From positions 1,364,001 to 1,428,000 of the forward strand of contig NZ_JAHVKE010000001.1 of assembly GCF_019800885.1 (NCBI RefSeq): a DNA stretch of 64,000 nt, written 5' to 3'. A program made the translations under genes and the position numbers. Shown here piece after piece: positions 3,485 through 33,517 of this stretch (position 1 is its first letter; each line of letters starts with the position of its first letter). The notes beneath the pieces are model-generated. The model had not been told where the DNA came from and did no database searches. It worked only from the letters and a program-made list of their open reading frames with translations. The stretch comes from Maritalea mobilis (GTDB taxonomy: Bacteria; Pseudomonadota; Alphaproteobacteria; Rhodobacterales; Rhodobacteraceae).

Positions 3485-4009
3485 ATGCGATACACCTATT
3501 CAAACACCCGCCGGGCCGTGCTTCTCGCGATAGCGGCTGCGGGTGCGCTCGCCCTCCAGGGGGGCGGGGCCACCGCACAGCAGGCAGAGGCACCGCCGGA
3601 CACAATCCTGACGGTCGTGCCCGCGCCCGGCGCCATGCCCGTTCACTTCACCGACGCCGATCTCGCCGATCTGCCCCAGCACTCCTTCCAGACGTCCACG
3701 ATCTGGACGGTGGGGGTGCCGGAGTTCTCCGGCCCTTCTCTTGCGAGCGTTCTTGCGGCGGCAGGCATGGAGGACAGCGTGCGGCAGATCCGGCTCACGG
3801 CGCTCAACGACTATGCCGTGCTGATCGACATTGAACAGATCGAGGAGGACGTGCCCATCATCGCCAACCGGATGAACGGCGCGACGTTCAGCGTCCGTGA
3901 CAAGGGACCGCTCTGGGTGGTGTTCCCCTTTGACGCCGCACCGCGGTATCGCGCCGAAACGATCTTTGCGATCAGTGTCTGGCAGCTACGGCATATCGAG
4001 GCTCTTTGA
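3485..4009 (+). CDS. Periplasmic molybdopterin-oxidoreductase-fold protein (probable kinase partner)
   Basis: A signal peptide (RRAVLLAIAAAGALALQ) is followed by about 140 residues resembling the sulfite-oxidase/YedY molybdopterin-binding fold: FSGPSLASVLAAAG, then LTALNDYAV and GPLWVVFPFD. The mature part contains no cysteine, so it lacks the usual Mo ligand and is probably not a working oxidoreductase. The stop overlaps the TTG start of the hybrid kinase by three bases (TTGA), which suggests coupled translation. I infer that it is a periplasmic sensing partner of that kinase. The ATG at 3485 was chosen because the signal peptide starts there; a GTG at 3467 is an alternative. Confidence 0.7.
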   Translation: MRYTYSNTRRAVLLAIAAAGALALQGGGATAQQAEAPPDTILTVVPAPGAMPVHFTDADLADLPQHSFQTSTIWTVGVPEFSGPSLASVLAAAGMEDSVRQIRLTALNDYAVLIDIEQIEEDVPIIANRMNGATFSVRDKGPLWVVFPFDAAPRYRAETIFAISVWQLRHIEAL

Positions 4010-6690
4010 TCGTGGAAGGCCGGGCAGGCATCTCCAACGCAACGGGCTGGCGTCCCCATGCCGTGGCCTACCTGCTGGTCGGCCTTCTGGTGTTGAGTTT
4101 GATCGGCCTCGCCCATGGCGCATGGCGCCTTGAGCAGAACCTCAGGGCCGTGCGCGAGGCCGAAGGCGACAATCGCGCCTGGAACGTGTCGCAACTCGAG
4201 ACGGATTATCAGGATTTTCTGTTCGCGTTGCGAGATGCGAGGGATGCCTTTCAAAGCGGCCCGCCGCTGTCGATCCAGCGGACGGACAGCGAAATGCGGC
4301 TCGAGTTTGACATCTTCTACAGCCGCATCACCGCCTTCAACGCCACCCTCAGGCGGTCCGAATTCGAAGACGAATTCCGGGCGCGCCTCGATCAATTGCT
4401 GACATTCCGTGATCTCACCGCCGATGCGGTCGATGCCATCACGGCGGGTGACATCGCCGCCCTCGACGCGCTCTATTCCAATGTCATCGCGTTCGAGGTC
4501 GATATCCGGGAATTGACGGTTGGCGCGCTTCACGCGCTTGTCTCTCGTGCCGAAGCCGCCAGGCTCGAGGAACAGCGGCTGCTTCGGTCATTCCTGGGGC
4601 AAGCTGTCCTCCTCCTCGTTCTTACGCTGGTCTCGGCAAGCCTTGCCCTGCGCCTTCTGGGACTGATCCGCAGACAGGCGGAAGAGACGCTCCAGGCGCA
4701 GGCCTTGGTCAACAAGGCTTTCGAAGGGGCGCAGGAGGGGGTGCTTGTCTGTGATGCCGATGGCCGGATCCTCCTGAGCAACCCGACGGCTCGCGAGATC
4801 TTCGGCTATGATCCGGGCGAACTAGAAGGAAAGCTTCTTGAGGAAACGGTTGTTCCGGCTTTTCGGATGCGCCGATATCGCATGGGCATGGCAGAGGCAC
4901 TCGCTCAGGTGCGCGCCGGAGAAAGCGGCGGCCTTGGTCCCATCCAGTTCGAGGGGCTGCGTTCCGACGGCGAGGTCTTCAAGGCTTCCGTCGCCTTGCG
5001 TGCAGAGGCCGCGTATGACGAGGCCCTGCGCATCTTTGTCTTCGTGCGCGACATCACCGAACGGTTCGAGTTCGAAGAACGGCTGCGCGTGGCGTTGCAC
5101 GAGGCGCGCGAGCATTCCGATGCCAAGGGTCGGTTCCTCGCGACCATGAGCCATGAGCTGCGGACTCCGCTGCACGGTGTGGTCGCGTCCCTCGACCTTC
5201 TGCGCAACGGCGAGTTTGACGACGAGACATCATCTCTGCTCGCCACGGCGAAGAGTTGCAGCGAAAGGGCGCTGACGCAGATCGACTACGCGCTGGATGC
5301 GATCCGCAGCGAAGGCGACAACGAGGCCCCGGCACCGTTCGACCCGGTCGCAGCCGTCCGCTCGATAATCGCCGAGATGGAACCCCTGGCGCGTCTGGAG
5401 GGCAACGTCATTTCTCTCGACCTGCATGGCCTGGAAGACCGGACGAGGATTTCTGGTCAGCCCAAGGCCTACGCGCGCACGGTATTCAACCTCGTCGGCA
5501 ATGCGGTCAAGTTCACGTCCGGCGGGCACATCACGATCCGGCTTGAAAATCGTCCCACCCGCGGAGCAGAGGCGCGTGAGCTGCTGACGGAAGTGCGCGA
5601 CACTGGCCCCGGCATTGAAAGAAAGGACTGGGAAAAAATCTTCGATCCGTTCGAACAGAGCGAGGCCACCCACCAGGCCGCCGCCAACCCGGGTTTCGGT
5701 CTCGGGCTTTCGATCGTGAAACAGGACGTGGCACGCATGCGTGGCAGGATCGAGGTCGACAGCGAAGTCGGGCAAGGCGCGTGTTTCCGGTTCACGATCC
5801 CCTTCGTGGAAGTCGGCGCGTCCGCTGCGCCACAAGCCGATCGCCGCGATGGGGAGACCGTCACGGCGAAACGGACGCCCCGCCAGCCCATGTATTCCCG
5901 CGCGCTTGTCGTTGACGACAATCCGGTAAACTGCGCACTGGTCGCGCGGATGTTGGAGCAAATGGGCATTGCCACGCAGTGCTGCGTTTCGGGCGCGGAG
6001 GCCGTGGAGATGGCCCGAACCCGTCGCTATGGGTTGATCCTGATGGATGTCCGGATGCCCGTTATGGACGGTGTCGAAGCCACCGAGATCATTCGCCGTG
6101 GCGGTGCCTCCCGCGACGCCGTGATTATCGGGATCACGGCACATGTGGATTTCACGTCGTCCGAGGCCTACCGAGGTTCGGGCATGACCTCCGTATTGAT
6201 CAAGCCGTTCGGCAAGAAAGACCTCGCGCGCCATCTCGAAGAACACCGTACGGCAGGACACGCGGATGTCGCGGTCCCCGACATGAGCGACGAGGCGCGG
6301 CATCGGGCCCTCGTTGCCCTGCGCGACGCGCTTGACCTGATCGGTGACAAGGTCGGTTTCGCGCTTGCGTCGGATGTCTGCGCCGGGGCCCGGGCTGCTA
6401 TCGCTGCGGCGCGTGCCAAAGACCCGACCACGGCCGACAAGGCCCATTCCGCGGCGGGGTCGGCCCTGATGTTGGGGCTGTCCGATCTGGGAAGACTGCT
6501 TCAGGATCTCGAACGTATGGCGGATGCCGCCGAACCGACGGACACCCAAGCGCTGCGGACGCTTCTGTCGTCGCTGACCCTTGAGGTCCATACCGTTGAC
6601 GAGGTGCTTCGGGATCTGTCACGCGGCGACCCAGGTGGTCACCAGAATGCGGCGGGTGAGGCAAAAAGCATCTCGGTCGCGTCCGAGTGA
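4006..6690 (+). CDS. Hybrid sensor histidine kinase with receiver and Hpt domains
   Basis: Protein of 894 residues. Membrane segments lie at about 19-40 and 196-218 and enclose a helical periplasmic part. Next come a PAS domain (about 232-350), a HisKA dimerisation helix with H383 in MSHELRTPLHG, a HATPase domain with VRDTGPGIE and GFGLGLSI, a receiver with D681 in ILMDVRMPVMDG, and an Hpt domain with H814 in DKAHSAAGSA. It therefore holds a complete phosphorelay apart from the final response regulator, which could be the divergent LuxR-type gene at 2604-3215. The TTG start overlaps the preceding gene. Its last 120 bases are duplicated at 22540-22659. Confidence 0.92.
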   Translation: MIVEGRAGISNATGWRPHAVAYLLVGLLVLSLIGLAHGAWRLEQNLRAVREAEGDNRAWNVSQLETDYQDFLFALRDARDAFQSGPPLSIQRTDSEMRLEFDIFYSRITAFNATLRRSEFEDEFRARLDQLLTFRDLTADAVDAITAGDIAALDALYSNVIAFEVDIRELTVGALHALVSRAEAARLEEQRLLRSFLGQAVLLLVLTLVSASLALRLLGLIRRQAEETLQAQALVNKAFEGAQEGVLVCDADGRILLSNPTAREIFGYDPGELEGKLLEETVVPAFRMRRYRMGMAEALAQVRAGESGGLGPIQFEGLRSDGEVFKASVALRAEAAYDEALRIFVFVRDITERFEFEERLRVALHEAREHSDAKGRFLATMSHELRTPLHGVVASLDLLRNGEFDDETSSLLATAKSCSERALTQIDYALDAIRSEGDNEAPAPFDPVAAVRSIIAEMEPLARLEGNVISLDLHGLEDRTRISGQPKAYARTVFNLVGNAVKFTSGGHITIRLENRPTRGAEARELLTEVRDTGPGIERKDWEKIFDPFEQSEATHQAAANPGFGLGLSIVKQDVARMRGRIEVDSEVGQGACFRFTIPFVEVGASAAPQADRRDGETVTAKRTPRQPMYSRALVVDDNPVNCALVARMLEQMGIATQCCVSGAEAVEMARTRRYGLILMDVRMPVMDGVEATEIIRRGGASRDAVIIGITAHVDFTSSEAYRGSGMTSVLIKPFGKKDLARHLEEHRTAGHADVAVPDMSDEARHRALVALRDALDLIGDKVGFALASDVCAGARAAIAAARAKDPTTADKAHSAAGSALMLGLSDLGRLLQDLERMADAAEPTDTQALRTLLSSLTLEVHTVDEVLRDLSRGDPGGHQNAAGEAKSISVASE

Positions 6691-7538
6691 TCGCGCAGAC
6701 GCGCCCCTGTCGCCTCTCCATTCATCCGCGCCCATTTATCGAAAGTTTGCCCTGGTAAACCTTTTCGCAATGCGACTGACTTCCGTGCGGTTGGTCAGTT
6801 CGTGGGGCATGTGACACCTTTTCAAAAAAAGAGAATTCCTGAGAGGCGGAAAGGCGGGGGCACCGATGCTGAAAAGACTTGTCGCGATGATCAAGAAAAT
6901 TGACGGGCACGGCTTCATGGAGCCCATGCCCTGTGCAATGGGCGGCGGCGCGTCGGTCGACATAATGGCGCCGGCGCCCCGCTGGACCGCTGACGCCAGG
7001 CTCCACCCCACCAGCAGACCCACTCGACCATCCGACTGCCATCAGACGCCGTCGCCTTTGAGCGCGGTGTCCCACCTGCTTGGGCCGAACGCGGTCGAAA
7101 GACGCATGGTCATGTTGGTCCCCGAAGGATCCACCCTCTTGCGTCACGCGGGCTGGCTCGATGACGCGACGCAGGGCTGCAGCACCACGTCCGAACCCGC
7201 AGATGTGCGCGGCGCGCCGAATGTCGGAGATTCACCTGGCGCCATACTGCTCGTTGACCTTGCAGTATTCCCGCGTCTGGCCACCGCAATCGACTGGCTG
7301 ATAGCACTTCGAAACGACGTGCCCGGTGTCGTGGTCGCCGTGGCCTTCGACCAGTTTCCGGAGCACGACATGAGCTGCGAAAGGTTCCAGGTCGCCGACG
7401 TGAGCGTGCGCTTGCCGATTTCTCGCCCGGCGCTCGGGTTGGCGGTCAGCGCAGCGATGACAAATCATCGGTTTACATTGCCACTTCGGCGGAAACCGAT
7501 ACTGCACTGAGTCAGTGTAGCACTGGACCTCGGTGACG
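6571..7538 (+). repeat. Inverted duplication, copy 1
   Basis: About 968 bases, from the end of the hybrid kinase gene through the degenerate receiver gene, recur in reverse orientation at 21693-22659. The two encoded 214-residue proteins differ at only about ten positions, while the spacer between kinase stop and receiver start has diverged more. The repeats flank a segment of about 14 kb. Confidence 0.9.
6866..7510 (+). CDS. Degenerate receiver-domain protein A
   Basis: Protein of 214 residues, soluble. The C-terminal half (about 78-205) follows a receiver fold: MVMLVPEG at strand 1 without the acidic pair, then AILLVDLAVFP with D131 at the phospho-acceptor position, then VVVAVAF, then ADVSVRLPIS where a receiver has its Lys-Pro. 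The N-terminal 75 residues are unlike any domain I know. It lies 175 bases after a hybrid kinase in the same direction. A near-identical copy is at 21722-22366 and two divergent relatives are at 19266-19832 and 20988-21617. Loss of the acidic pair argues against ordinary Mg-dependent phosphorylation; a phosphorylation-independent partner role is inference. Confidence 0.75.
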   Translation: MLKRLVAMIKKIDGHGFMEPMPCAMGGGASVDIMAPAPRWTADARLHPTSRPTRPSDCHQTPSPLSAVSHLLGPNAVERRMVMLVPEGSTLLRHAGWLDDATQGCSTTSEPADVRGAPNVGDSPGAILLVDLAVFPRLATAIDWLIALRNDVPGVVVAVAFDQFPEHDMSCERFQVADVSVRLPISRPALGLAVSAAMTNHRFTLPLRRKPILH

Positions 7539-21721: not shown

Positions 21722-22366
21722 TCAGTGCTGCATCGGTTTCCGCCGAAGTGGCAATGTAAACCGATGATTTGTCATCGCTGCGCTGACCGCCAACCCGAGC
21801 GCCGGGCGAGAGATCGGCAAGCGCACGCTCACGTCGGCGACCTGGAACCTTTCGCAGCTCATGTCGTGCTCCGGAAACTGGTCGAAGGCCACGGCGACCA
21901 CGACACCGGGCACGTCGTTTCGAAGTGCTATCAGCCAGTCGATTGCGGTGGCCAGACGCGGGAATACTGCAAGGTCAACGAGCAGTATGGCGCCAGGTGA
22001 ATCTCCGACATTCGGCGCGCCGCGCACATCTGCGGGTTCGGACGTGGTGCTGCAGCCCTGCGTCGCGTCATCGAGCCAGCTCGCGTGACGCAAGAGGGTG
22101 GATCCTTCGGGGGCCAACATGACCACGCGTCTTTCGACCGCGCTCGGCCCAAGCAGGTGGGACACCGCGCTCAAAGGCGACGGCGTCAGATAGCAGTCGG
22201 AAGGTCGAGTGGGTCTGCTGGTGGGGTGGAGCCTTGCGTCAGCGGTCCAGCGGGGCGCCGGCGCCATTATGTCGACCGACGCGCCGCCGCCCATTGCACA
22301 GGTCATGGGCTCCATGAAGCCGTGCCCGTCCATTTTCTTGATCATCGCGACAAGTCTTTTCAACAT
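21722..22366 (-). CDS. Degenerate receiver-domain protein A, second copy
   Basis: Protein of 214 residues, nearly identical to the product of 6866-7510; differences include I12M, P22T, H59Y, Q60L, N75S, M81V, V85A, G96S, I212M and L213Q. The reading frame is intact despite loss of the kinase upstream. The receiver-like core with D131 and without the strand-1 acidic pair is unchanged. Preservation of the frame after loss of its neighbour suggests either recent duplication or selection on the protein itself. Confidence 0.75.
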   Translation of the reverse strand: MLKRLVAMIKKMDGHGFMEPMTCAMGGGASVDIMAPAPRWTADARLHPTSRPTRPSDCYLTPSPLSAVSHLLGPSAVERRVVMLAPEGSTLLRHASWLDDATQGCSTTSEPADVRGAPNVGDSPGAILLVDLAVFPRLATAIDWLIALRNDVPGVVVAVAFDQFPEHDMSCERFQVADVSVRLPISRPALGLAVSAAMTNHRFTLPLRRKPMQH

Positions 22367-22765: not shown

Positions 22766-23416
22766 CAGGCTTTCGGGCGCGATATTCCCGCCGGATTTCT
22801 CTGTTATCCGGCGGCACAAGCCGCGGACATTACGGCCTTCAAGGCCACGGTCGTGCCGGTCGGCGAGGATCAGGCCCCGCTGATCGAACAGACGAACGAG
22901 ATCGTCCGTCGGATCAACGCAACAGCGGGCAGCGCCGTATTGCCCGAGGCGCGGGCGATCATCCCAAGGACAGGCCGGTTACCCGGCATCGACGGCAAGG
23001 CCAAGATGTCGAAATCCGGTGGCAATGCCATTGCCTTGTCCGCGTCGCCCGGGGAAATTCGCAGTGCTGTCAGAGCGATGTTTACCGATCCTTACCACCT
23101 GCGTGTCGAGGACCCGGGTCGCGTTGAGGGCAACGTTGTCTTCACCTATCTCGACGCCTTCGACCCGGACCAGGACGGGCTTGCCGAGCTTAAGGCACAT
23201 TATCAGCATGGCGGACTAGGCGATGGTCAGGTCAAGGCGCGTCTGGAAGCTATCCTTCAGGACCTGATCGCCCCAATTCACGAGCGCAGGGCAAAACTCT
23301 CCCAAGACCGGAGATACATTCGTGAGGTGATAAAGGACGGCACGGAACGGGCGCAAGAGCGCACCGAAGCGACAAAGCGCGAGGTGGTGAATGCCTTGGG
23401 TCTGTTCCAGTTGTAG
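22766..23416 (+). pseudogene. trpS: Tryptophanyl-tRNA synthetase, 5'-truncated
   Basis: After an in-frame TGA at 22763 the frame reads FGRDIPAGFLCYPAAQAADI, then TVVPVGEDQAPLIEQTNEIV, then KMSKSGGNAIALS, then the C-terminal tRNA-binding part to a stop at 23414-23416. This is the C-terminal two thirds of TrpRS with the KMSKS loop. The N-terminal part with the HIGH motif and most of the Rossmann core is absent. It cannot be an active synthetase, so a complete trpS must exist elsewhere. The internal GTG at 22853 is not a real start. Confidence 0.85.
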
Positions 23417-23623: not shown

Positions 23624-25582
23624 TCAAGGCTCCAACCGATCACCAGGCTCAAACGATTTCGATCGCTCCTCGTGGACCGCTGCCGAACATGCCTGCTCCA
23701 ATCGAGACACAAGATCATCGGCAGTGAGCCGGTGCAGTGTATTCGCGTCGGGGTTGAACTCGATCACGTCCGTGTCCGGGTGCGATGCGATCAACCGATG
23801 TACCCATTGAAGCTGGCGCACGATGGTCTTCGGCGTCTCGCCGATCAGCCCGGGTGTGATGAACACACGATTGTTCGCCTCACTGTTTGGCCCCACATCT
23901 TTCGGAGCTGCCGCCATCAACTCTTCCAATTGCTGCTGCGCCTTTGCCTCCGCTGCCTTTGGACAAGGCATGATACGAGGCGGACGGCGCCGCAGGAATG
24001 CTGAGCGCACGGCCGAAAGGGTTTCTTCGGAGGCGCTGACGAGATCTCCGGGCGCGGTCGGATCATGAAATGGCCATCCGCGTTGGTTAGTTACGATTTC
24101 CCAGCGATTGGTCTTTGCCCAAAAACTCGCGAAGCTCATCGCTTCGCTCTCGCCGCTGGCGTCGGTCGACAAGCGGACAAGATTTGGATGGAGCCGAAGT
24201 CCAGACTGGTCCGCGAACCGAACGCGAAAGGCCTTCTTTTTGGGGTCCAGCTTGATTGTCGGCTTGGATTTCCACTTTTTGACGAAGCGCAAAACCCTCG
24301 CGAACAGATCACCGAGCGGCGAAAGCGTCAGGCTTCGGCGAGCAGCATCTCGCGAAACGGATGAAGCGTCTGGTGCAAGTCTTCCAACAAGACGGTCTGA
24401 CGCTCTATCTGCTTCCCCTGTTGCTGCAACATGTCCTCGAGGACCCTCATGCGCTTGTCCAACTGCTCCAGTTGGGCGTTCTGGCCTTGCATCTGCGTTT
24501 CGATCCTCGCCAGCAATTCCACGAGACGCTCCCCGATCTGGATGGCTTGATCCTCCGGTCGATCCAGCATTTCCAGGTACAATTTCAGGAGTGTAGATGT
24601 GTCCCTTTGAATCTCGCCCGTCGTGTCCGCCGTGTGACCAGACACGAACATTAGGTTGTCCAATCGTGCCATGACTTCTTGAATCTGCAGCTGCTCGAGG
24701 GTGGTTTCGCTCGTCATCGTACCGTTCCTTTTCGGTCAACTTGTCAAGTTTTGGAGAATGTGTCGCCAGCGCATCCGCAAGCAGCAGAAGGTCCAGGCGG
24801 TTGCGCAGTCGGCGCCGGGCTGCATTGTCCACAAAGCGCTGCCCGAGCGCTTTTGGCATCAGATCGTCGCTCAGATGGCGTCCCGCGATCTCGTAAGCGG
24901 GGTCTTCGCTCAGCGAAAAACGGAAAGCCATAATGTCTTTATTGTTCGGCGCCTGGTTCACCAGAACGCCTTGCGAATGCATTTCGCGGCGAAATTCTTC
25001 GACGCTTTCCGGCTGCCGTGCTGACAGAACGAAGCCGACTGACGACGCGATCTGCCGCATCACGTCCGATTTCAATCGCCGATTTGGCAGGTAAATTCCA
25101 TGGAGGGGCCGTGCGCTCGGCAATCCAAGATGCTTGCGAACAAATATCTCCGCACGGTCACATCGCGCCTTGCGATTTCTGAGATCGATCCAGCGACCGC
25201 TGAAGCTACGAGGCAACAACACGGTATGGCTGTGATCCTTTCCACCCCGGATCGTCGGCCGGTGTTGTGCGGAGATCCATGGGATCGAGAGCGGATCAAG
25301 CCCGAGGCCAGTCATGGCCGTGATGAGAAGATTTTCCCATTCCCCTTGTCCGAGGCAAAGGCCCGGCGGCAAGGAGATCGTCATGTGGATCCACGGTTTT
25401 ACCGGGGCATCTGGCGCGGCCGTATCGTCGACTAGTTGCTTCATATGCAAGGCTGTGTGCGGAACACTCGCGGAGGGAACCGTTCCGCCGATGAGGTCCG
25501 TTTGATATCCCTCCGCGCCCCGAAAGGCGTAGCCCAGGACACTCCCGGGCAACGCGTGTTCTTTGAGGTACGGGCGGGTCAT
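23624..25582 (-). CDS. Relaxase/mobilization nuclease
   Basis: Protein of 652 residues. The N-terminal domain contains PWIHMTISLPPG (65-73) and RGGKDHSHTVLLP with H117-S-H119, a degenerate H-x-H metal motif of relaxases. Its place after a MobC-like gene, with ATGA overlap, supports this. Residues about 289-418 are a low-complexity linker rich in Arg, Gly, Asp and His, and this stretch coincides exactly with a second gene in another frame (24328-24717). The C-terminal domain (about 425-652) looks like a normal folded protein but is not recognised. It probably nicks the plasmid or island DNA at oriT. The catalytic tyrosine or its equivalent is not certain. Confidence 0.72.
   Translation of the reverse strand: MTRPYLKEHALPGSVLGYAFRGAEGYQTDLIGGTVPSASVPHTALHMKQLVDDTAAPDAPVKPWIHMTISLPPGLCLGQGEWENLLITAMTGLGLDPLSIPWISAQHRPTIRGGKDHSHTVLLPRSFSGRWIDLRNRKARCDRAEIFVRKHLGLPSARPLHGIYLPNRRLKSDVMRQIASSVGFVLSARQPESVEEFRREMHSQGVLVNQAPNNKDIMAFRFSLSEDPAYEIAGRHLSDDLMPKALGQRFVDNAARRRLRNRLDLLLLADALATHSPKLDKLTEKERYDDERNHPRAAADSRSHGTIGQPNVRVWSHGGHDGRDSKGHIYTPEIVPGNAGSTGGSSHPDRGASRGIAGEDRNADARPERPTGAVGQAHEGPRGHVAATGEADRASDRLVGRLAPDASSVSRDAARRSLTLSPLGDLFARVLRFVKKWKSKPTIKLDPKKKAFRVRFADQSGLRLHPNLVRLSTDASGESEAMSFASFWAKTNRWEIVTNQRGWPFHDPTAPGDLVSASEETLSAVRSAFLRRRPPRIMPCPKAAEAKAQQQLEELMAAAPKDVGPNSEANNRVFITPGLIGETPKTIVRQLQWVHRLIASHPDTDVIEFNPDANTLHRLTADDLVSRLEQACSAAVHEERSKSFEPGDRLEP
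24328..24717 (-). CDS. Coiled-coil protein nested in the relaxase gene
   Basis: Protein of 129 residues, coded on the same strand as the relaxase but in another frame and entirely inside it. It has the ribosome site AAGGAA 7 bases before the ATG. The sequence is a clear heptad-rich coiled coil (IETQMQGQNAQLEQLDKRMR, then VLEDMLQQQGKQIERQ), rich in Gln, Leu and Glu, unlike a random out-of-frame product. The overlapped relaxase segment is by contrast a disordered-looking linker. Nesting of a small mobilization gene in a relaxase gene is known from RSF1010 (mobB inside mobA). Sequence similarity to MobB is not apparent. Confidence 0.65.
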   Translation of the reverse strand: MTSETTLEQLQIQEVMARLDNLMFVSGHTADTTGEIQRDTSTLLKLYLEMLDRPEDQAIQIGERLVELLARIETQMQGQNAQLEQLDKRMRVLEDMLQQQGKQIERQTVLLEDLHQTLHPFREMLLAEA

Positions 25583-25890
25583 TTCCCACCCGCCCTCTTC
25601 GGCGTCGTCTGGAGCTGCCGCACCAATGCCCGCAGGTCCTTCGCCAGTTTCTCGAGCTTCTCCACACCCTCACCAGCCGCAGTAGACTTGAGCAAACGGG
25701 TCAGGTGGTTCACGCCAAGGCCAAGCAGCGCGATGGAGCGGTCACGCTCGACCTCGCGCATCGCGAGGCCAAGAACGAGGGTCCGCCGGGTGTACTCCGA
25801 CTTCGTTTTGATGCGTGCCCGTGCCATATCAGCGAACACCTGCTCAGCGAGTTCGTGGTCGAGCCAAGCCTCGAATTTTTCTTTTCCCAT
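25579..25890 (-). CDS. MobC-like relaxosome accessory protein
   Basis: Protein of 103 residues: MGKEKFEAWLDHELAEQVFA, then KTKSEYTRRTLVLGLAM, then a helical C-terminus (VEKLEKLAKDLRALVRQLQ). A ribbon-helix-helix-like N-terminus with a helical tail fits MobC/MbeB-type accessory proteins that bind oriT and help the relaxase. The stop overlaps the relaxase start (ATGA), so they are translationally coupled. The family assignment rests on size, fold pattern and position. Confidence 0.65.
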   Translation of the reverse strand: MGKEKFEAWLDHELAEQVFADMARARIKTKSEYTRRTLVLGLAMREVERDRSIALLGLGVNHLTRLLKSTAAGEGVEKLEKLAKDLRALVRQLQTTPKRAGGK

Positions 25891-25896
25891 CTCCGC

Positions 25897-26265
25897 TCAC
25901 CCTTCGAAGTCAGATTCATTAGGGTCGAAAGCGTGATCCTCATACTCGACACATTCCCTTGTCGCGATGTATGCCGCGACTTCGTCAGGCAGCCACCTGA
26001 TCGTACCCGGCCCGATCCGGCGGGCCCTCGGAAAACGCGGATCCGAAGTCATCCACCGGTGCAGCGTCGAGCGCGTCACACCGAAGATGACGAGCAGTTC
26101 CGCACGCGTCAGCAGCGGCGCCGTCCTGTTCAGCCGGATCGCGGGCGCTTCATTGCCCCGCGCATTCGGCCCGCCCTCGGCCACCTTGCATTCAGGCACG
26201 TCTTCAGACTGCGCCTCCGGCACATTGCGCGCCAGCGAGGCACGCCGATTAAAATTTTCAGTCAC
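25897..26265 (-). CDS. AlpA/excisionase-like HTH regulator
   Basis: Protein of about 122 residues from the GTG at 26265, which follows AGGAG at good spacing; the longer open frame upstream has no ribosome site and crosses the candidate oriT hairpin. The core LLTRAELLVIFGVTRSTLHR, then RRIGPGTIRWLPDEVAAYI is the winged helix-turn-helix of AlpA/excisionase proteins. It lies 6 bases before the MobC-like gene and heads the mobilization operon. It may regulate that operon or excision. Confidence 0.75.
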   Translation of the reverse strand: MTENFNRRASLARNVPEAQSEDVPECKVAEGGPNARGNEAPAIRLNRTAPLLTRAELLVIFGVTRSTLHRWMTSDPRFPRARRIGPGTIRWLPDEVAAYIATRECVEYEDHAFDPNESDFEG

Positions 26266-26639
26266 GATTTGGACTCCTCGTATCGCAGTCTTGACTACAT
26301 GCGAAAATCGAAGCAACGTCCGAACTGTCGAGGAACGTACATTGCCACTTATCGCACCGGCGGAAAGCCTTTTGACCCGCTGGTGGGATAAGTGTGCGAG
26401 AAATCCGTGAAAACGAAAACCCGGATTTTTGGCCCTAAACACGGTTTTCCACATATTCGTGGATGCCGGCGCTTGGCCCCTATCTTCACGAGAACTGCAG
26501 CAAAATGCTGCATCGTCTTAGGCTCTTTATAGAGCAGCCAAAAACAAGTTCGAAATGACGTATTGAAGTGCGACGCCCTCGCCACCCTCAGGCCACACAT
26601 TGACCCTACGCCACCAGTTCTTCAGCACCCGGCGGGCAA
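26266..26639. other. Intergenic region with candidate oriT
   Basis: A 374-base gap between the mobilization operon and hsdR. It contains the strong hairpin at 26346-26394, a weaker GAAAACC/GGTTTTC repeat near 26417-26456, and TGCAGC/GCTGCA and GCTCT/AGAGC stem-loops near 26490-26540 that could end hsdR transcription. No gene is seen. Confidence 0.55.
26346..26405 (+). other. Candidate origin of transfer (oriT)
   Basis: CACTTATCGCACCGGCGG at 26346-26363 is repeated inverted at 26377-26394 with two mismatches and a 13-base loop, and is followed by TAAGTGTGCGAG. A hairpin followed by such a sequence resembles the RSF1010/R1162 nic region, which contains TAAGTGCGCCCT. It lies directly upstream of the mobilization operon. 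The nick site itself is not shown. Confidence 0.5.
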
Positions 26640-29609
26640 CTAGCCCTGTCGCGCCTGCCTTTGCGCCCGCTGGAAGAAATGCCGCGTTGCTTGCTCCCTG
26701 GCGTCCTTGTCGGTCATGACGATGTTCCGCATCTCGTTGTCTTGTTGGAACATCTTCACCATGCCTTGGAAGAACGCCTGCGAGAACGCGTTATAAACGA
26801 CATCCGCCGGATTGTTCCGCACCATCTCGGTCATGTCTTCGTCCATGATATCGCGGGTCACCCGCTCGAACCGAAGGAAGTCTTCGCGTGAAAACTGGGT
26901 GCCGTGCCGCTCGTTGAACGACTCAATAATCTCGGACAGCGATTTCTCTTCTTCCTCGGTGTAGGGGTTCGCGCCAAACTCGGTGATCGGGTCGAGCGTT
27001 CGGGTCTCGCCCGCGCTCAAGGATGCGCTACCGTCTTCGCCGTTCTTCAACTTGAACGCGGACAGGTTCAGCATGTCGTCGGTGATCGTGATGTCGGCGG
27101 GCACATCGCGGGACGGCAGCAGGCGCGACAACCACGATGTATAGGCATAGAGTTTTTCCAACCACGCATCGTTGAGCGACACGACCTGCGCCACGAAGGC
27201 GTAGAACCGCTGGAAACTCTTCAAGAGTTGCCGGAACTCTTCCTGTTCCGCCTCATCTTCGTCCAGTTCGAAACGCTCAACGGCAAGACGGACTGTGCCT
27301 TCCAGCGTGAGGCGGTCTTGGGTTGTCAGGTCGCCTTTGAAAAACTGATCGGCAAACCGTTCGACCTCATCTTTTTGGATATAGGTCGCGTTCGAAATGC
27401 GCTGTTCCAGATCGTAGATTTGGTTCAGGTCGGTCCGCTCTTCGAGCGCGGTCGCCTCGAAGAAGGGCGCGAAGGCCTCTTTGACCTCGTCCATCGTGTT
27501 CTGGAAGTCGAGGACGAAGGTTCGAGTCTTGCCGGGGTGGGTCCGGTTCAGACGAGCAAGCGTCTGAACCGCCTGCAAGCCGGCGAGTTTCTTGTCCACA
27601 TACATCGCAACGAGTTTCGGTTGGTCGAACCCAGTCTGGTATTTCTCAGCGACGACGAGGATCTGGAACTCTTCTGTGTCGAACTTCTTCGGCAGTTCCG
27701 TTTCTGCGAACCCGTTCGCGGTTGCCTCAGTCCAGACATTGCCATCGATGTTGAGATCGCCTGAGAACGCGACCAGTGCCTTGAGATCGGCATATCCCTT
27801 TTCCGCGATGTAGTCGTTCAGGCGCTGCCAGTAGCGAAGGGCATGTTCGCGACTCTGGGTCACGATCATCGCTTTCGCCTTTCCGTCGAGTTCCTTGGCA
27901 ACGTGACGGCGGAAGTGTTCGACGATCACCTCGACCTTCTGATCGATGGCGGTCGGGTGCAGCGAGGCGTAGCGGGCGACCCGCGCCTGTGCCTTGCGGC
28001 CCTTGAAGGCAGGATCATCCTCGATGGTTTTCTCAAGTTGATAGTATGCCTTGTAGGTCATGTAGTTCTGGAGCACGTCCAGAATGAACCCTTCCTCGAT
28101 TGCCTGACGCATCGAATAAAGGTGGAACGGGTGGGGTTTGCCGTCTGACCCGATCCGCCCGAAGCGTTCCAGCGTCACGTTGCGCGGTGTCGCGGTGAAG
28201 GCGAGGAACGAGATGTTCTTCTGCGGCCCACGCGCTTTCTGGAACGCGAGAACCATGTCTTCAATGTCCTCCGAACTCGTGTCGTCGCGGGTCAGCGCGT
28301 CGGTCATGCCCTGCGCTGCCTTGCCTGACTGGGACGAATGCGCCTCGTCGATGATCACGGCGAAGTTTTTGCCGCCCTGACCGGAGATTGTCTTCAAGTG
28401 TTCAGTGCCGAACTTCTGGATCGTCGTGATGATGATCCGGGCGCCTTTCAGGATCGCGTCTTTCAGGTCGCGAGAGGTGCCATCAATCTTCTTCACGACG
28501 CCCTCGGTCTGGGCAAACCCGCCGATGGTGTTCTGCAACTGTCGGTCCAGCACCAAGCGATCGGTCACGATGATCGCAGTATCAAACAGCGGTTGGTCGT
28601 TCTCATCATGCAGGTTGATGATCTGGTGGGCGGTCCAGGCGATGGTGTTTGATTTGCCTGACCCTGCGCTGTGCTGAATGAGGTAGTTCTGCCCTGCCCC
28701 CTTGGATCGCGCGTCCGCGAGAACTTTGCGCACGGCGTCGAGTTGCTGGAAGCGAGGGAAGATCAGAACCTCTTTGCCGTTCCCGCGTTCCAGATGGATG
28801 AAACGCCCGATCAGGTCGAGAAGCACCTCGCGCGAGAACACCGCGCGCCCATCCGGCAGATCCTTGTAGAGGTAGGCGACCCGGTTCTCACCCGGCACAT
28901 CGGGGTTTCCGGCTCCACCGTCGCGACCACGGTTGAAGGGCAGGAACCGCGTCTTGCCGTTCATCAGGCGCGTGGTCATCGACACGTTGTCCTGATCCAC
29001 CGCGAAATGGACGATGGCACCGCGTTTGAAAGTCAGCAGTGGTTCGCCAGCGGGGGAACGGTCTTTCCGATACTGCTTCTCGGCGTGTTTGACGTTCTGC
29101 CCGGTCAGTAGGTTCTTCACCTCCAGCGTGGCGACCGGGATGCCGTTGACGAAGGTCACCAGATCGATGGCGTTCTTGTTCTTCGCCGAGTAGGCCACCT
29201 GCCGCATCACGGATAGGATGTTTGCCTCATAGAGGCGCGTCAGGTCCGGGTTCAGGTTCGACGCGGGTTTGAAGAAGCACAGCGCGAAACGGATGTTCGG
29301 CACCAGTTTGATGCCCTCGCGCAGCACGACATGGGTCGGGTTGTCCTTCAGCGCCTTGTCGAGACGCTTCAGAACCTCTGCCTCTGCCTGCGCGCTGTAG
29401 TGGTCTTCCAGCACCTGCCATGCGTCGGGTTGCGTGACCTTCAGAAAGCGGAACAGCAACTCGGTGTCGAGGGCATGGGCAACGTCATAGTGGGACGGGC
29501 AGTCGCGCTCAATGTATCCCTGATCGCCGGTCAGGCAGGCGACGATATGCGCCTCGAAGACCTTCTCTTGATGAATGTCGGCGGTGGTGTGGATCGTCGT
29601 CACGAACAA
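26640..29609 (-). CDS. hsdR: Type I restriction enzyme R subunit
   Basis: Protein of 989 residues. The endonuclease motif is D149 to E163-V-K165 in FVNGIPVATLEVKN. The helicase part has the Walker A QHSAGSGKSNTIAW, the DEAH box VIIDEAHSSQSG and motif III FLAFTATPRN, then LARLNRTHPGK. It cleaves and translocates DNA with HsdM and HsdS. The frame is intact and all motifs are present, so it is probably active. It is the last gene of the operon, 6 bases after the small accessory gene. A fragment of a related hsdR is found at 36197-36347. Confidence 0.95.
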   Translation of the reverse strand: MFVTTIHTTADIHQEKVFEAHIVACLTGDQGYIERDCPSHYDVAHALDTELLFRFLKVTQPDAWQVLEDHYSAQAEAEVLKRLDKALKDNPTHVVLREGIKLVPNIRFALCFFKPASNLNPDLTRLYEANILSVMRQVAYSAKNKNAIDLVTFVNGIPVATLEVKNLLTGQNVKHAEKQYRKDRSPAGEPLLTFKRGAIVHFAVDQDNVSMTTRLMNGKTRFLPFNRGRDGGAGNPDVPGENRVAYLYKDLPDGRAVFSREVLLDLIGRFIHLERGNGKEVLIFPRFQQLDAVRKVLADARSKGAGQNYLIQHSAGSGKSNTIAWTAHQIINLHDENDQPLFDTAIIVTDRLVLDRQLQNTIGGFAQTEGVVKKIDGTSRDLKDAILKGARIIITTIQKFGTEHLKTISGQGGKNFAVIIDEAHSSQSGKAAQGMTDALTRDDTSSEDIEDMVLAFQKARGPQKNISFLAFTATPRNVTLERFGRIGSDGKPHPFHLYSMRQAIEEGFILDVLQNYMTYKAYYQLEKTIEDDPAFKGRKAQARVARYASLHPTAIDQKVEVIVEHFRRHVAKELDGKAKAMIVTQSREHALRYWQRLNDYIAEKGYADLKALVAFSGDLNIDGNVWTEATANGFAETELPKKFDTEEFQILVVAEKYQTGFDQPKLVAMYVDKKLAGLQAVQTLARLNRTHPGKTRTFVLDFQNTMDEVKEAFAPFFEATALEERTDLNQIYDLEQRISNATYIQKDEVERFADQFFKGDLTTQDRLTLEGTVRLAVERFELDEDEAEQEEFRQLLKSFQRFYAFVAQVVSLNDAWLEKLYAYTSWLSRLLPSRDVPADITITDDMLNLSAFKLKNGEDGSASLSAGETRTLDPITEFGANPYTEEEEKSLSEIIESFNERHGTQFSREDFLRFERVTRDIMDEDMTEMVRNNPADVVYNAFSQAFFQGMVKMFQQDNEMRNIVMTDKDAREQATRHFFQRAQRQARQG

Positions 29610-29615
29610 TTTCCT

Positions 29616-30146
29616 TCAGCTAATGGATTTTAGCCTATTCCGGAGTGTTATCACCCGCTCTCCCAAGATATGATATTGTCTGGCCAGATTTTCCCTTTGC
29701 GCTGTTAAATCGCGGATTTCTGCTTGTAGAGCAGCAATGGTTTCCGCGCGTTCTCCATGAGGCATGATCTTTGCGTTGCCTGCGCTCTGAGCGGTGTGCT
29801 CACAAAGTTCAGGTTGCGCCAGCACCCAAGCCTCGGGGCCTACAGCACGCACTTCTTTCTTCACGCTTGGATGCATTTTCTTGAACGGATTGGGGAGCGG
29901 CTTGCCTGCCGCAAGTGCGGCGGCCACGGCTTTGATGTAGTTCAAGCGTGTTGCGTCACGCCGCTCCTGAAGGGTTTGGTTTTTCTTTTTCCACTTAGTA
30001 GTTCCAGCCGGAGCGACGTTTGTTCGCTTGGTTTTTTTCCCCTTCGGCGGTGGGTTGCGTGGGCCAGGTTCATCAACAGGCGCGTAGCCTTGGTCACGAA
30101 TCTTCTGCTCGAAGTTGGCCCGTGTCCAATTCATTCTACCGGCCAC
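29616..30146 (-). CDS. Small basic coiled-coil protein between hsdS and hsdR
   Basis: Protein of 176 residues from the GTG at 30146, or 172 from the ATG at 30134. The N-terminal half is very basic and Pro/Lys-rich (RNPPPKGKKTKRTN, TKWKKKNQTLQER), which suggests nucleic-acid binding. The C-terminal 50 residues form a likely coiled coil (IAALQAEIRDLTAQRENLAR, then ILGERVITLRNRLKS). No family is recognised. It is inserted between the core type I genes in the same direction, 6 bases before hsdR, so it is probably co-expressed and may modulate the enzyme. Its function is unknown. Confidence 0.65.
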   Translation of the reverse strand: MAGRMNWTRANFEQKIRDQGYAPVDEPGPRNPPPKGKKTKRTNVAPAGTTKWKKKNQTLQERRDATRLNYIKAVAAALAAGKPLPNPFKKMHPSVKKEVRAVGPEAWVLAQPELCEHTAQSAGNAKIMPHGERAETIAALQAEIRDLTAQRENLARQYHILGERVITLRNRLKSIS

Positions 30147-30185
30147 TTGAACCTCGCCATGCTTTGCTTGTGTGGAGAACTGAAA

Positions 30186-31499
30186 TCAAGCGCCCATCTC
30201 CTCTTGAATGGCGTCGAGGCGGCGGTCGGGGGTGCCGGATTTGGCGTAGGTCGCCACGTCGATCTGACCTGTGACAGCGGCGGCAATCAGGGCGGAGCGG
30301 TATTCTTTGAGGCGGTCGATGGATTGTTCGTTCTTGGTCTGTAGATGCGTGATTTGTCCAATCCGTTCTTCGACATATTCCGAGATCAGTCGCTGCTCTT
30401 CATATTCAGGCACCGCAACTCGGATTCTGCCGAAGTTGTCGGCATTCAACCGCATGAACCCAGAGTGACCGGTGCCCAAACCCTTCGACAGAAGCCGAAA
30501 TGCTGCCATCATTGGTTCCGTCTTGAACAGTCGAAGGAAGTAGGCAGCGTGGGCGTTAGAATCCACATCGAAGATTGAGTAGTCGGGACTGACGATGCCA
30601 GCACTATTGGCCAGACCGAACAGTCCGATCGCCGCCCTCATTCGGTTCATCACGATCTGACCGGGAAATACCTTCTTGTAGTTGATGAGATCACTTGGCG
30701 GGATTTCCTTGTCTGAAACATCGTTGTGAGGAAGCAACCCTTCCTTCATCCGCAACGAGAACAGAGTCTCCTGACCGTCACTGCTATATTGAGTGTTCTC
30801 GCGGAAGAAATGTTTCAGGCGATAGACGTTCCAGTGTCGTGGTCGGTGCGAAGTCCATTCCAGTTCGTCCTCCGGAACAAGTTCTGCATCAGGATCAATA
30901 CCAAGAGTGACCGCGCGCAGAATGTCATCTTCGAGTTTCTCCCCCAGCAACGCCACCAACCGCTGCTTTTGCTCGATCAGCAGGTCTATTCTTGCGGTCT
31001 CACGGTCCAGAAAGTCGGCGATCTGGCGTTGGGTCGCGAGGTCGGGGACATTTATCGGGATGCTCTTGATACCGCCTAGCGTAAGACCGTAGCGGGTGAC
31101 GCCGTTTGCGGCATTTCCGAAGTCCTCCTGCGATTTCTTCGAGAGCAAATGCCAATAGAGAAACGGACCGATCATGCGTCGACGATCAGCGCGCAAGATC
31201 GAAAGATGATACCCGCACACCAAATCATCTGCAGTTGATTTCACGAGTGCTGGAACGCCGATATCGTCCGCGGTCTCGGAGTCCTTAGTGATGATTACGT
31301 CATCAACCTTCACCCTGAACTTCTTGATTTCGGCTGCGGTTGCACTGCCCAGTTTGAACGGCATGTCGTTGTGGATGAAGTTGTTCTTGTAGACATCAAC
31401 GTAGTTGCAAAGACGGACCGGATGCTCGTCGGGGTCGACGACCTTATCTACGTTACTGGTCAGAACCATTGCCACATCGCGCAGTCGGTGCGTTGTCAC
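30186..31499 (-). CDS. hsdS: Type I restriction enzyme specificity subunit
   Basis: Protein of 437 residues with two target-recognition regions, each followed by a conserved helical spacer: VPDLATQRQIADFLDRETAR, then LIEQKQRLVALLGEKLE, and near the end VPEYEEQRLISEYVEERIGQ. This two-half layout recognises a bipartite DNA site. The start is a GTG that overlaps the hsdM stop. It is followed by a 39-base gap before the accessory gene. Confidence 0.93.
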   Translation of the reverse strand: MTTHRLRDVAMVLTSNVDKVVDPDEHPVRLCNYVDVYKNNFIHNDMPFKLGSATAAEIKKFRVKVDDVIITKDSETADDIGVPALVKSTADDLVCGYHLSILRADRRRMIGPFLYWHLLSKKSQEDFGNAANGVTRYGLTLGGIKSIPINVPDLATQRQIADFLDRETARIDLLIEQKQRLVALLGEKLEDDILRAVTLGIDPDAELVPEDELEWTSHRPRHWNVYRLKHFFRENTQYSSDGQETLFSLRMKEGLLPHNDVSDKEIPPSDLINYKKVFPGQIVMNRMRAAIGLFGLANSAGIVSPDYSIFDVDSNAHAAYFLRLFKTEPMMAAFRLLSKGLGTGHSGFMRLNADNFGRIRVAVPEYEEQRLISEYVEERIGQITHLQTKNEQSIDRLKEYRSALIAAAVTGQIDVATYAKSGTPDRRLDAIQEEMGA

Positions 31500-33517
31500 T
31501 CGACCACCTCCTGCAGCAGACCGGCGATCTCTGCTTCCAGCGCCTTCAACTCGGCGTCGATTTCTTCCAGCGGCCTCGGTGGCACGTATTTGTAGAAATA
31601 GCGGTTGAAGTTGATCTCATACCCGACACGCCCGACGCCGCCGTCTGCTGCGTCGGTGTAACTCTCGTCCACCCAGGCATCGGGAACGAAGGGTTTTACC
31701 TCGCGTTGCACGTATTCCGCCCAGTGTTCATCTAGCGGCACCAGTTCGTGATCGCGCAGATCGGTGTCGGGTTCGGGATTGCCGTTCTTGTCGGAGCAGA
31801 CCTCGGCGTCTTCATCGCGTTCGGACAGGGCAGACAGGATTGCCTTCCTGACCGGCGCACCGACCTTGACGCCCGCGCGACGGAGGGCGGCGGAGAGCGC
31901 CTTGTCGAAGTCGTCCCGGACGATCCATCGTTCGTCGGCAGGCAAGTGATCCTGCAACGCGTCCAGAACGCGGGACTGGTCGTCTTCATCGAGTTTCTGG
32001 AACGGTTTCGCCTCGCGCAGCGTCTCCAACGCCTCGGGCGTGACGGCAAAGGCGAGTTTCAGCGGGCGTTCAACGCGGATTTCGCGATACCCGAAGTCGG
32101 TGGTGTCGAAGATCTTGGATACGTCACCCCAGTCGCCATCGCCGTTCAGCATCTCGGCATAGATGCGGGCGATCTCATCACACGCCTCGGCCGGGATTTC
32201 GCGGCGCTTGGACCCGAGCGACTTGCGCATCGATTTCCAGAACCGCTCGCCGCTGGCGTCGATCAGTTGCACCTTGCCGCGACGCGCGGTGTCTTTGCGG
32301 TTGGTTAGCAACCAGACATAGGTCTGAATGCCGGTGTTGTAGAAGAGGTCGGTCGGCAGCGCGATGATCGCCTCGACCCAGTCGTTTTCCAGCATCCACC
32401 GGCGGATCTCGCTTTCACCCGACCCGGCACCGCCGGTGAAGAGGGGTGACCCGTTCATGACGATTCCGATGCGCGACCCTTGTTCGTCGTTGCGCATCTT
32501 GGAGATCATGTGCTGCAGGAACAGCAGCTGCCCGTCCGAGATGCGGGGCAGACCCGCGCCGAAGCGCCCGGACATGCCCAACTCCGACGCTTCTTCCTTG
32601 ATCGGGTCTGCATACTTCTTCCAGTCCACGCCATAGGGCGGGTTCGACAACATGTAGTGGAAGCGTTTGGTCGCGTGGGCGTCTTGGGTCAGCGTGTTGC
32701 CAAAGGCGATGTTCTCAGGGTTGTGCCCGGTCACCAGCATGTCGGACTTACAGATCGCGAAGGACTCGGGGTTGAGTTCCTGCCCGAAGAGTTCGACGCG
32801 GATGCGGTCGTTCAGCGCCTTCATCTCCATTTCGGCGATGGAAAGCATGCCGCCCGTGCCTGCGGCAGGGTCGTAGACTTGCCGGATAACACCCGATCCG
32901 GTCAACGCTTCCTTGTCGTTGATCAGCAGGAGCGAGACAATCAGGCGGATGACCTCGCGCGGGGTGTAGTGTTCACCCGCCGTCTCGTTCGAGATTTCCG
33001 AGAAGCGACGGATCAGGTCTTCGAACAGATACCCCATCTCGAGGTTGGAGATGGCGTTCGGGTGCAGGTCGATCTGGGTGAACTTGTCGAAGACCTGATA
33101 GAGCAGACCGGCGTCATTCAGGCGCTTGAGTTGATCGGTGAACAGGAACTTGTCGAGGAAGATATCGCGGACATTGCCCGAGAACTTGGTGATGTAGTCG
33201 ATCAGGTTCTTGTGGATGTCCTTGGCGTCCTGCCCCTTGAGAGAGGCGAAGGTGAAGCGGGACAGGTTGTAGAGACGGATGTCTTGCCCCACGACGCCGG
33301 AAAGGAGGGTGTCGCGCGCATCGTCGTCCATATCGTCAGGCAGGTTGCCTGCCATGCGCAGCACTTCGGGTTTGGTCTCTTCGAGGATGCAGTCGAGGCG
33401 ACGCAGAACGACGAAGGGCAGGATGACCTTGCCATACTCGGATTGCTTGAAATCGCCGCGCAGGAGTTCAGCGATCGACCAGACGAAGGAGCCGAGAGAT
33501 TTAATGTCCGTACTCAT
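31496..33517 (-). CDS. hsdM: Type I restriction enzyme DNA methyltransferase subunit
   Basis: Protein of 673 residues. The N-terminal HsdM region (SIAELLRGDFKQSEYGKVIL) is followed by the N6-adenine methylase with the S-adenosylmethionine motif YDPAAGTGGML and the catalytic MLSNPPYGVDW. It is longer than many HsdM proteins (about 500-550) because of a C-terminal extension of about 150 residues with a regulatory-looking acidic segment. It methylates adenine at the HsdS target to protect host DNA. It overlaps hsdS. Confidence 0.94.
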   Translation of the reverse strand: MSTDIKSLGSFVWSIAELLRGDFKQSEYGKVILPFVVLRRLDCILEETKPEVLRMAGNLPDDMDDDARDTLLSGVVGQDIRLYNLSRFTFASLKGQDAKDIHKNLIDYITKFSGNVRDIFLDKFLFTDQLKRLNDAGLLYQVFDKFTQIDLHPNAISNLEMGYLFEDLIRRFSEISNETAGEHYTPREVIRLIVSLLLINDKEALTGSGVIRQVYDPAAGTGGMLSIAEMEMKALNDRIRVELFGQELNPESFAICKSDMLVTGHNPENIAFGNTLTQDAHATKRFHYMLSNPPYGVDWKKYADPIKEEASELGMSGRFGAGLPRISDGQLLFLQHMISKMRNDEQGSRIGIVMNGSPLFTGGAGSGESEIRRWMLENDWVEAIIALPTDLFYNTGIQTYVWLLTNRKDTARRGKVQLIDASGERFWKSMRKSLGSKRREIPAEACDEIARIYAEMLNGDGDWGDVSKIFDTTDFGYREIRVERPLKLAFAVTPEALETLREAKPFQKLDEDDQSRVLDALQDHLPADERWIVRDDFDKALSAALRRAGVKVGAPVRKAILSALSERDEDAEVCSDKNGNPEPDTDLRDHELVPLDEHWAEYVQREVKPFVPDAWVDESYTDAADGGVGRVGYEINFNRYFYKYVPPRPLEEIDAELKALEAEIAGLLQEVVE

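Follow-up and report, generated by a model that had tools for sequence, protein, structure and literature searches.

Does an open reading frame that lies wholly within a relaxase gene, on the same strand, encode a protein of its own, and if so, what could this protein do? The question is raised by a locus in the window, i.e. the whole stretch of 64,000 nt of Maritalea mobilis DNA analysed here. To our knowledge, long genes nested on the same strand are seldom established in bacteria, and in the present case both the frame and its boundaries are conserved, and selection has left a clear signature that comes with an internal control. The comparison of related sequences indicates that the nested genes of this family are very probably real.

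Layout of the nested frame and its host gene

The host gene (23624–25582, minus strand) encodes a 652-aa relaxase of the HUH type with Tyr18, His66 and the HxH pair 117/119. Its best fold match in the PDB is the R1162 MobA relaxase (2NS6, probability 0.99, E 0.02), and Y18, H107, H117 and H119 (motif I Tyr, motif III His) are invariant in the relaxase alignment. Seven of eight family members match PF03432 (best 1.7e-10), while the window copy at full length does not. The cut-offs of the NCBIfam models MobP1, MobP2, MobP3 and TraI_MobP_relax are not reached, the best member among the matches listed scoring 14.5 bits against 200. In the AlphaFold model the catalytic N-terminal part is folded (residues 1–291, 24710–25582, minus strand, delimited by AF2 pLDDT and alignment), residues 292–420 form an interdomain linker predicted to be disordered (24323–24709, minus strand), and a small C-terminal domain follows from residue 421 to about 499 (24086–24322, minus strand).

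The nested ORF (24328–24717, minus strand) is contained over its whole length in the relaxase ORF and is read in the same direction. Its ATG start is offset by 865 nt from the relaxase start, and the frame is therefore +1 relative to the relaxase. It occupies relaxase codons 289–418 and thus coincides with the disordered linker. Its TGA stop is read as Leu418-Thr419 in the relaxase frame, at the position where the C-terminal domain begins. The first-pass annotation had described a coiled-coil ORF of 129 residues in another frame of the relaxase gene, preceded by AAGGAA, and coordinates and sequence bear this out: the predicted product is a helical coiled-coil protein of 129 aa, and the Shine-Dalgarno-like AAGGAA can be read at 24725–24730 (minus strand), 7 nt 5' of the ATG. 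Its description of the relaxase segment as a linker agrees with the Gly/Arg/Asp/Ser-rich composition and the predicted disorder of residues 292–420.

A mobC-like gene for 103 aa (25579–25890, minus strand) shares 4 nt with the start of the relaxase gene. The window copy itself lacks a Pfam match; the genes at the corresponding position in relatives give matches to NikA-like RHH proteins. Just upstream of it, an ORF with a domain match to AlpA/HTH_17 excisionase-like regulators (25897–26454, minus strand) probably starts at an internal codon. An imperfect inverted repeat with 18-nt arms, a 13-nt spacer and ATAAGTG ends (26346–26394) is a candidate oriT. This repeat was not found in the relatives, nor was a conserved oriT motif common to them and the window. 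Since the mobC counterparts are NikA-like and tyrosine integrases adjoin several relaxase loci of the relatives, many of these loci are probably integrated mobilizable elements. No coupling protein of the TraG/VirD4 type (PF02534) was found in the window genome, so that the element would depend on a helper for its transfer or may be stranded.

Other features of the surroundings are a tyrosine integrase gene (PF00589, G000:C1:1362885-1363334), which lies shortly before the left edge of the window at about 25 kb from the relaxase and could belong to the same element, and a complete-looking type I restriction-modification operon (HsdR, HsdS, HsdM; 26640–33517, minus strand) directly upstream of the mobilization genes. 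The relaxase is adjoined by a 5'-truncated tryptophanyl-tRNA synthetase fragment (22853–23416, plus strand), with other trpS-like copies elsewhere in the genome. Two near-identical ORFs of 214 aa in opposite orientation, 6866–7510 (plus strand) and 21722–22366 (minus strand), lie about 14 kb apart and are possibly inverted duplicates.

Chance, recurrence and selection

The simplest explanation would be a frame left open by chance in a GC-rich linker. With the protein and codon usage of the window relaxase, the +1 frame stayed open in 50% of synonymous resamplings (P=0.50), and the same procedure left it open in 7–96% for relatives. The Shine-Dalgarno pairing in the window reached P=0.37, and in each gene resampled the pairing energy was not above the synonymous null. 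The argument from one sequence is therefore weak, and the length of the open frame and the strength of the ribosome site, not significant under resampling, were dropped as single-gene evidence. The amino acid sequence of the nested product behaved differently. When nested proteins were scored with held-out profiles, which exclude the scored protein and its close relatives, they obtained 32–78 bits, while synonymous resamplings (200 per relaxase) did not exceed 21.1 bits. For the window protein, a profile built without the window gave 33.0 bits, while the highest score among 200 resamplings was 8.2.

No close relative of the window nested protein turned up in plasmids, viral contigs or genome contigs, and querying these sets directly with either this protein or the complete relaxase yielded almost no matches. 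So rare a sequence looked like an orphan ORF before homologs of the relaxase had been collected. A family-level genome search recovered diverged relaxases, and each intact one has a +1 ORF for a similar coiled-coil protein. The profile of the relaxase catalytic domain matched 26 of 395 Rhodobacterales genomes. A profile of the nested protein with no more than seven members recovered the +1 ORF in every uninterrupted relaxase found, and a separate order-wide search with the nested profile hit 23 of the 395 genomes, nearly all at the same loci. In a class-wide sample of 385, one weak relaxase match was obtained besides the window, without a nested match.

Altogether, 29 distinct uninterrupted Rhodobacterales relaxase genes, with catalytic domains 25–90% identical, carry a homologous coiled-coil ORF, always in the +1 frame. 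It starts 793–880 nt after the relaxase start and is preceded by a Shine-Dalgarno-like site in 27 of the 29. The stop codon coincides with the beginning of the C-terminal domain of the relaxase; it is TGA in 24 of 28 complete copies (L003 runs off its contig) and usually reads as Leu-Thr/Ser in the relaxase frame. Among the named carriers are Pararhodobacter, Salipiger, Pseudooceanicola, Tropicimonas, Mesobaculum, Thioclava, Marivita and Sinirhodobacter, and it also occurs on plasmids of Paracoccus jeotgali and Rhodobacteraceae SC52. The predicted nested gene recurs in relatives across the marine Rhodobacter group and is overlooked by annotation.

A search for homologs with a broken nested frame and an intact relaxase frame yielded none, as the apparent exceptions have a broken relaxase. 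In L079 both frames are interrupted, in L080 the relaxase itself is broken, apparently by insertion of a serine recombinase, and L002, L032, L034 and L036 are fragments in which the relaxase itself is broken. The remnant at L072 (1449–2051, reverse strand) keeps the C-terminal domain of the relaxase together with the nested ORF, and a catalytic domain is undetectable. For the plasmids L042 and L043, the annotation shows a hypothetical protein in place of the nested ORF (WP_101501212.1, QIE43865.1) and contains no relaxase; MOB-suite types both as non-mobilizable. This is a practical gap, as two plasmids are annotated without relaxase and mobility-typed as non-mobilizable despite the nested ORF.

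The first-pass annotation had also suggested comparing substitution patterns in both frames, and this comparison revealed that purifying selection acts on the nested frame. Between the members of close pairs, most changes in the catalytic domain affect relaxase codon position 3, whereas most of those in the overlap affect relaxase position 1, which is nested position 3 (pooled chi2 P=4e-27 for overlap versus catalytic domain). Substitutions in five independent pairs were also classed by their effect in both frames. For the nested frame, dNN/dNS was 0.59 [0.49–0.71] in the overlap and 0.99 [0.86–1.14] in the catalytic domain, where the ratio serves as the expected neutral control. For the relaxase frame, dNN/dSN was 1.41 [1.12–1.79] in the overlap and 0.37 in the catalytic-domain control, and in these five pairs no amino acid constraint on the overlap beyond staying open was detectable. 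By these substitution patterns, which come from relatives, the window copy being without a close one, the nested frame is under purifying selection. Since none is seen on the relaxase frame there, the nested protein appears to be the selected product of the overlap. Although the relaxase codons alone would leave the frame open half the time, homology, fixed frame and boundaries, held-out scores and purifying selection refute a chance open frame for the family, and for the window ORF we regard this explanation as almost certainly wrong.

The constant +1 frame, beginning just after the catalytic domain, would also suit expression solely as a frameshift fusion, i.e. a relaxase catalytic domain with a coiled-coil tail. 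However, 27 of 29 members have a Shine-Dalgarno-like site and an ATG, GTG or TTG at the start, and in most members stops in the +1 frame lie 0–25 codons upstream of it. Moreover, no conserved slippery motif was noticed on an informal look. We consider a fusion very unlikely, and independent initiation is favoured.

The nested protein and its proposed role

In the window, helices are predicted for residues 12–28, 34–51 and 55–128 of the nested protein. The core of the family, VxxLxPLLxLLxxP...LGERL, precedes a coiled coil whose length varies, and the products comprise about 90–155 aa. No membrane segment was found; the maximal 19-residue hydropathy is 0.39 for the window protein versus 2.38 for MobB. 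According to these predictions the product is helical and soluble. A fold search with its model gave no significant match, and the Pfam and NCBIfam matches (NBAS, SMC, TraP, others) are coiled-coil noise below the cut-offs. MbeB and MbeD are absent among the matches listed. The lack of similarity to MobB noted in the first-pass annotation is correct (5.2 bits, within shuffles; hhalign 0.6%), and the scores for MbeB and MbeD (1.9 and 7.3 bits) are within shuffles as well. As homology to MobB, MbeB or MbeD is not detected, we treat the nested protein as analogous to them and do not class it as a member. The proteins share the VxxLxPLLxLL...LGERL core, the coiled coil and the +1 position in a relaxase linker, by which we delimit a new family, and the open-access literature searched, subscription papers being outside its coverage, held no earlier description of the nested gene. 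They are best read as a hitherto undescribed family of accessory mobilization proteins encoded by nested genes, judged from sequence and by analogy.

We propose that the relaxase transcript would encode two proteins. Initiation at the relaxase ATG would yield an HUH relaxase whose two folded domains are connected by a disordered linker. Initiation at the internal Shine-Dalgarno site and ATG, at the end of the catalytic domain, would lead to translation of the linker region at +1 and give a soluble, helical coiled-coil protein, with translation ending where the relaxase C-terminal domain begins. This product would oligomerise through its coiled coil, bind its own relaxase or the relaxosome, and aid relaxosome assembly or the hand-over to a coupling protein, in the way that MobB serves MobA in RSF1010/R1162. 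As both proteins would come from one mRNA, the proximity and dose of the nested product would be fixed relative to the relaxase.

From its position and its association with the relaxase family, the nested product is likely to be an accessory mobilization protein. Weakly related coiled-coil genes (25.8–27.5 bits, hhalign 81–88%) also adjoin the 3' ends of the HEN-like relaxase genes in L068 and L069, which points in the same direction, although such weak profile links are soft because coiled-coil proteins resemble each other by composition. These genes, on the reverse strand at about nt 1500, are not nested: in L068 the overlap is 4 nt, and in L069 the gene lies 45 nt downstream. Their place beside HEN-like relaxases suggests that the protein is tied to mobilization independently of the overlap.

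A real and selected nested gene could also encode a regulator of transcription or copy number, a protein for entry exclusion, or a defence or anti-defence factor that the element carries. No family match supplies a function, and the protein lacks a transmembrane segment like MbeD, which has been described as an entry-exclusion factor, and unlike MobB and MbeB. Against this, the gene is tied to the relaxase in every homolog and also, downstream, to a second relaxase family. Such roles therefore seem rather improbable, and a helper in mobilization is the preferred reading.

Relation to known nested mobilization genes

The parallel that the first-pass annotation drew with mobB inside mobA of RSF1010 holds: in RSF1010/R1162 (IncQ-1), MobB is a small helical protein encoded at +1 within the relaxase gene, after the catalytic domain (PMC2200642). 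By the title of the study, the transport signals of the R1162 relaxase require MobB (Parker & Meyer 2007, cited in PMC3297438). Unlike the new family, MobB has a C-terminal transmembrane segment and its host relaxase is of the MOBQ type with a fused primase; a sequence relation was not detected. ColE1 (MOBP5/HEN) provides an equally close precedent. As in the window, a mobC-like gene is followed by the relaxase gene, here mbeA, with MbeB and MbeD nested at +1, of which MbeD is likewise a soluble coiled coil. ColE1, however, has two nested genes instead of one, MbeB carries a transmembrane segment, neither protein is related in sequence to the new family, and the relaxase has HEN in motif III where the window relaxase keeps the HxH pair. 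The MOBP5 modules of the Paracoccus plasmids pMARC2 and pAES4, from the same taxonomic group, are alike by description in their overlapping mobA/mobB/mobC genes, but their relaxases belong to the HEN clade, unlike that of the window (PMC3832669).

The mobA/repB gene of IncQ-3 plasmids such as pGNB2 encodes a distant relaxase homolog (27% over 200 residues) and, like the window gene, contains a +1 nested coiled-coil ORF, here of 227 aa. Its product differs by a transmembrane segment and has no detectable similarity to the new family. The mobilization genes of pGNB2-type plasmids are counted as mobA and mobC only (PMC7557826). We observed the 227-aa coiled-coil and membrane ORF at +1 in mobA/repB at L041 (3682–4362), L098 (2889–3572), L100 (2883–3566) and L102 (2883–3566). 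In RefSeq-type records of IncQ-3-like plasmids it appears as 'hypothetical protein', with no entry for the relaxase half. Marinobacter p36788 (L101, about 3533–4252) has an unannotated +1 frame of 240 codons inside an annotated MOBP relaxase, with a coiled coil and a C-terminal membrane segment, resembling MobB and MbeB.

Possibly, though we hold this only tentatively, the relaxase is the derived frame, extended through a free-standing coiled-coil helper gene as at L068 and L069, so that the linker would be a by-product, and helical helpers would have become nested at +1 within relaxase linkers repeatedly, in RSF1010, ColE1, IncQ-3, Marinobacter and Rhodobacterales. If so, the nesting would recur because a co-encoded partner is brought to its relaxase. 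The matching layout in ColE1, RSF1010 and IncQ-3 would make it a recurrent design principle of relaxase genes, which is directly testable. Nested mobilization genes are thus already known in kind, and the Rhodobacterales family appears, by its sequences, as a new one among them.
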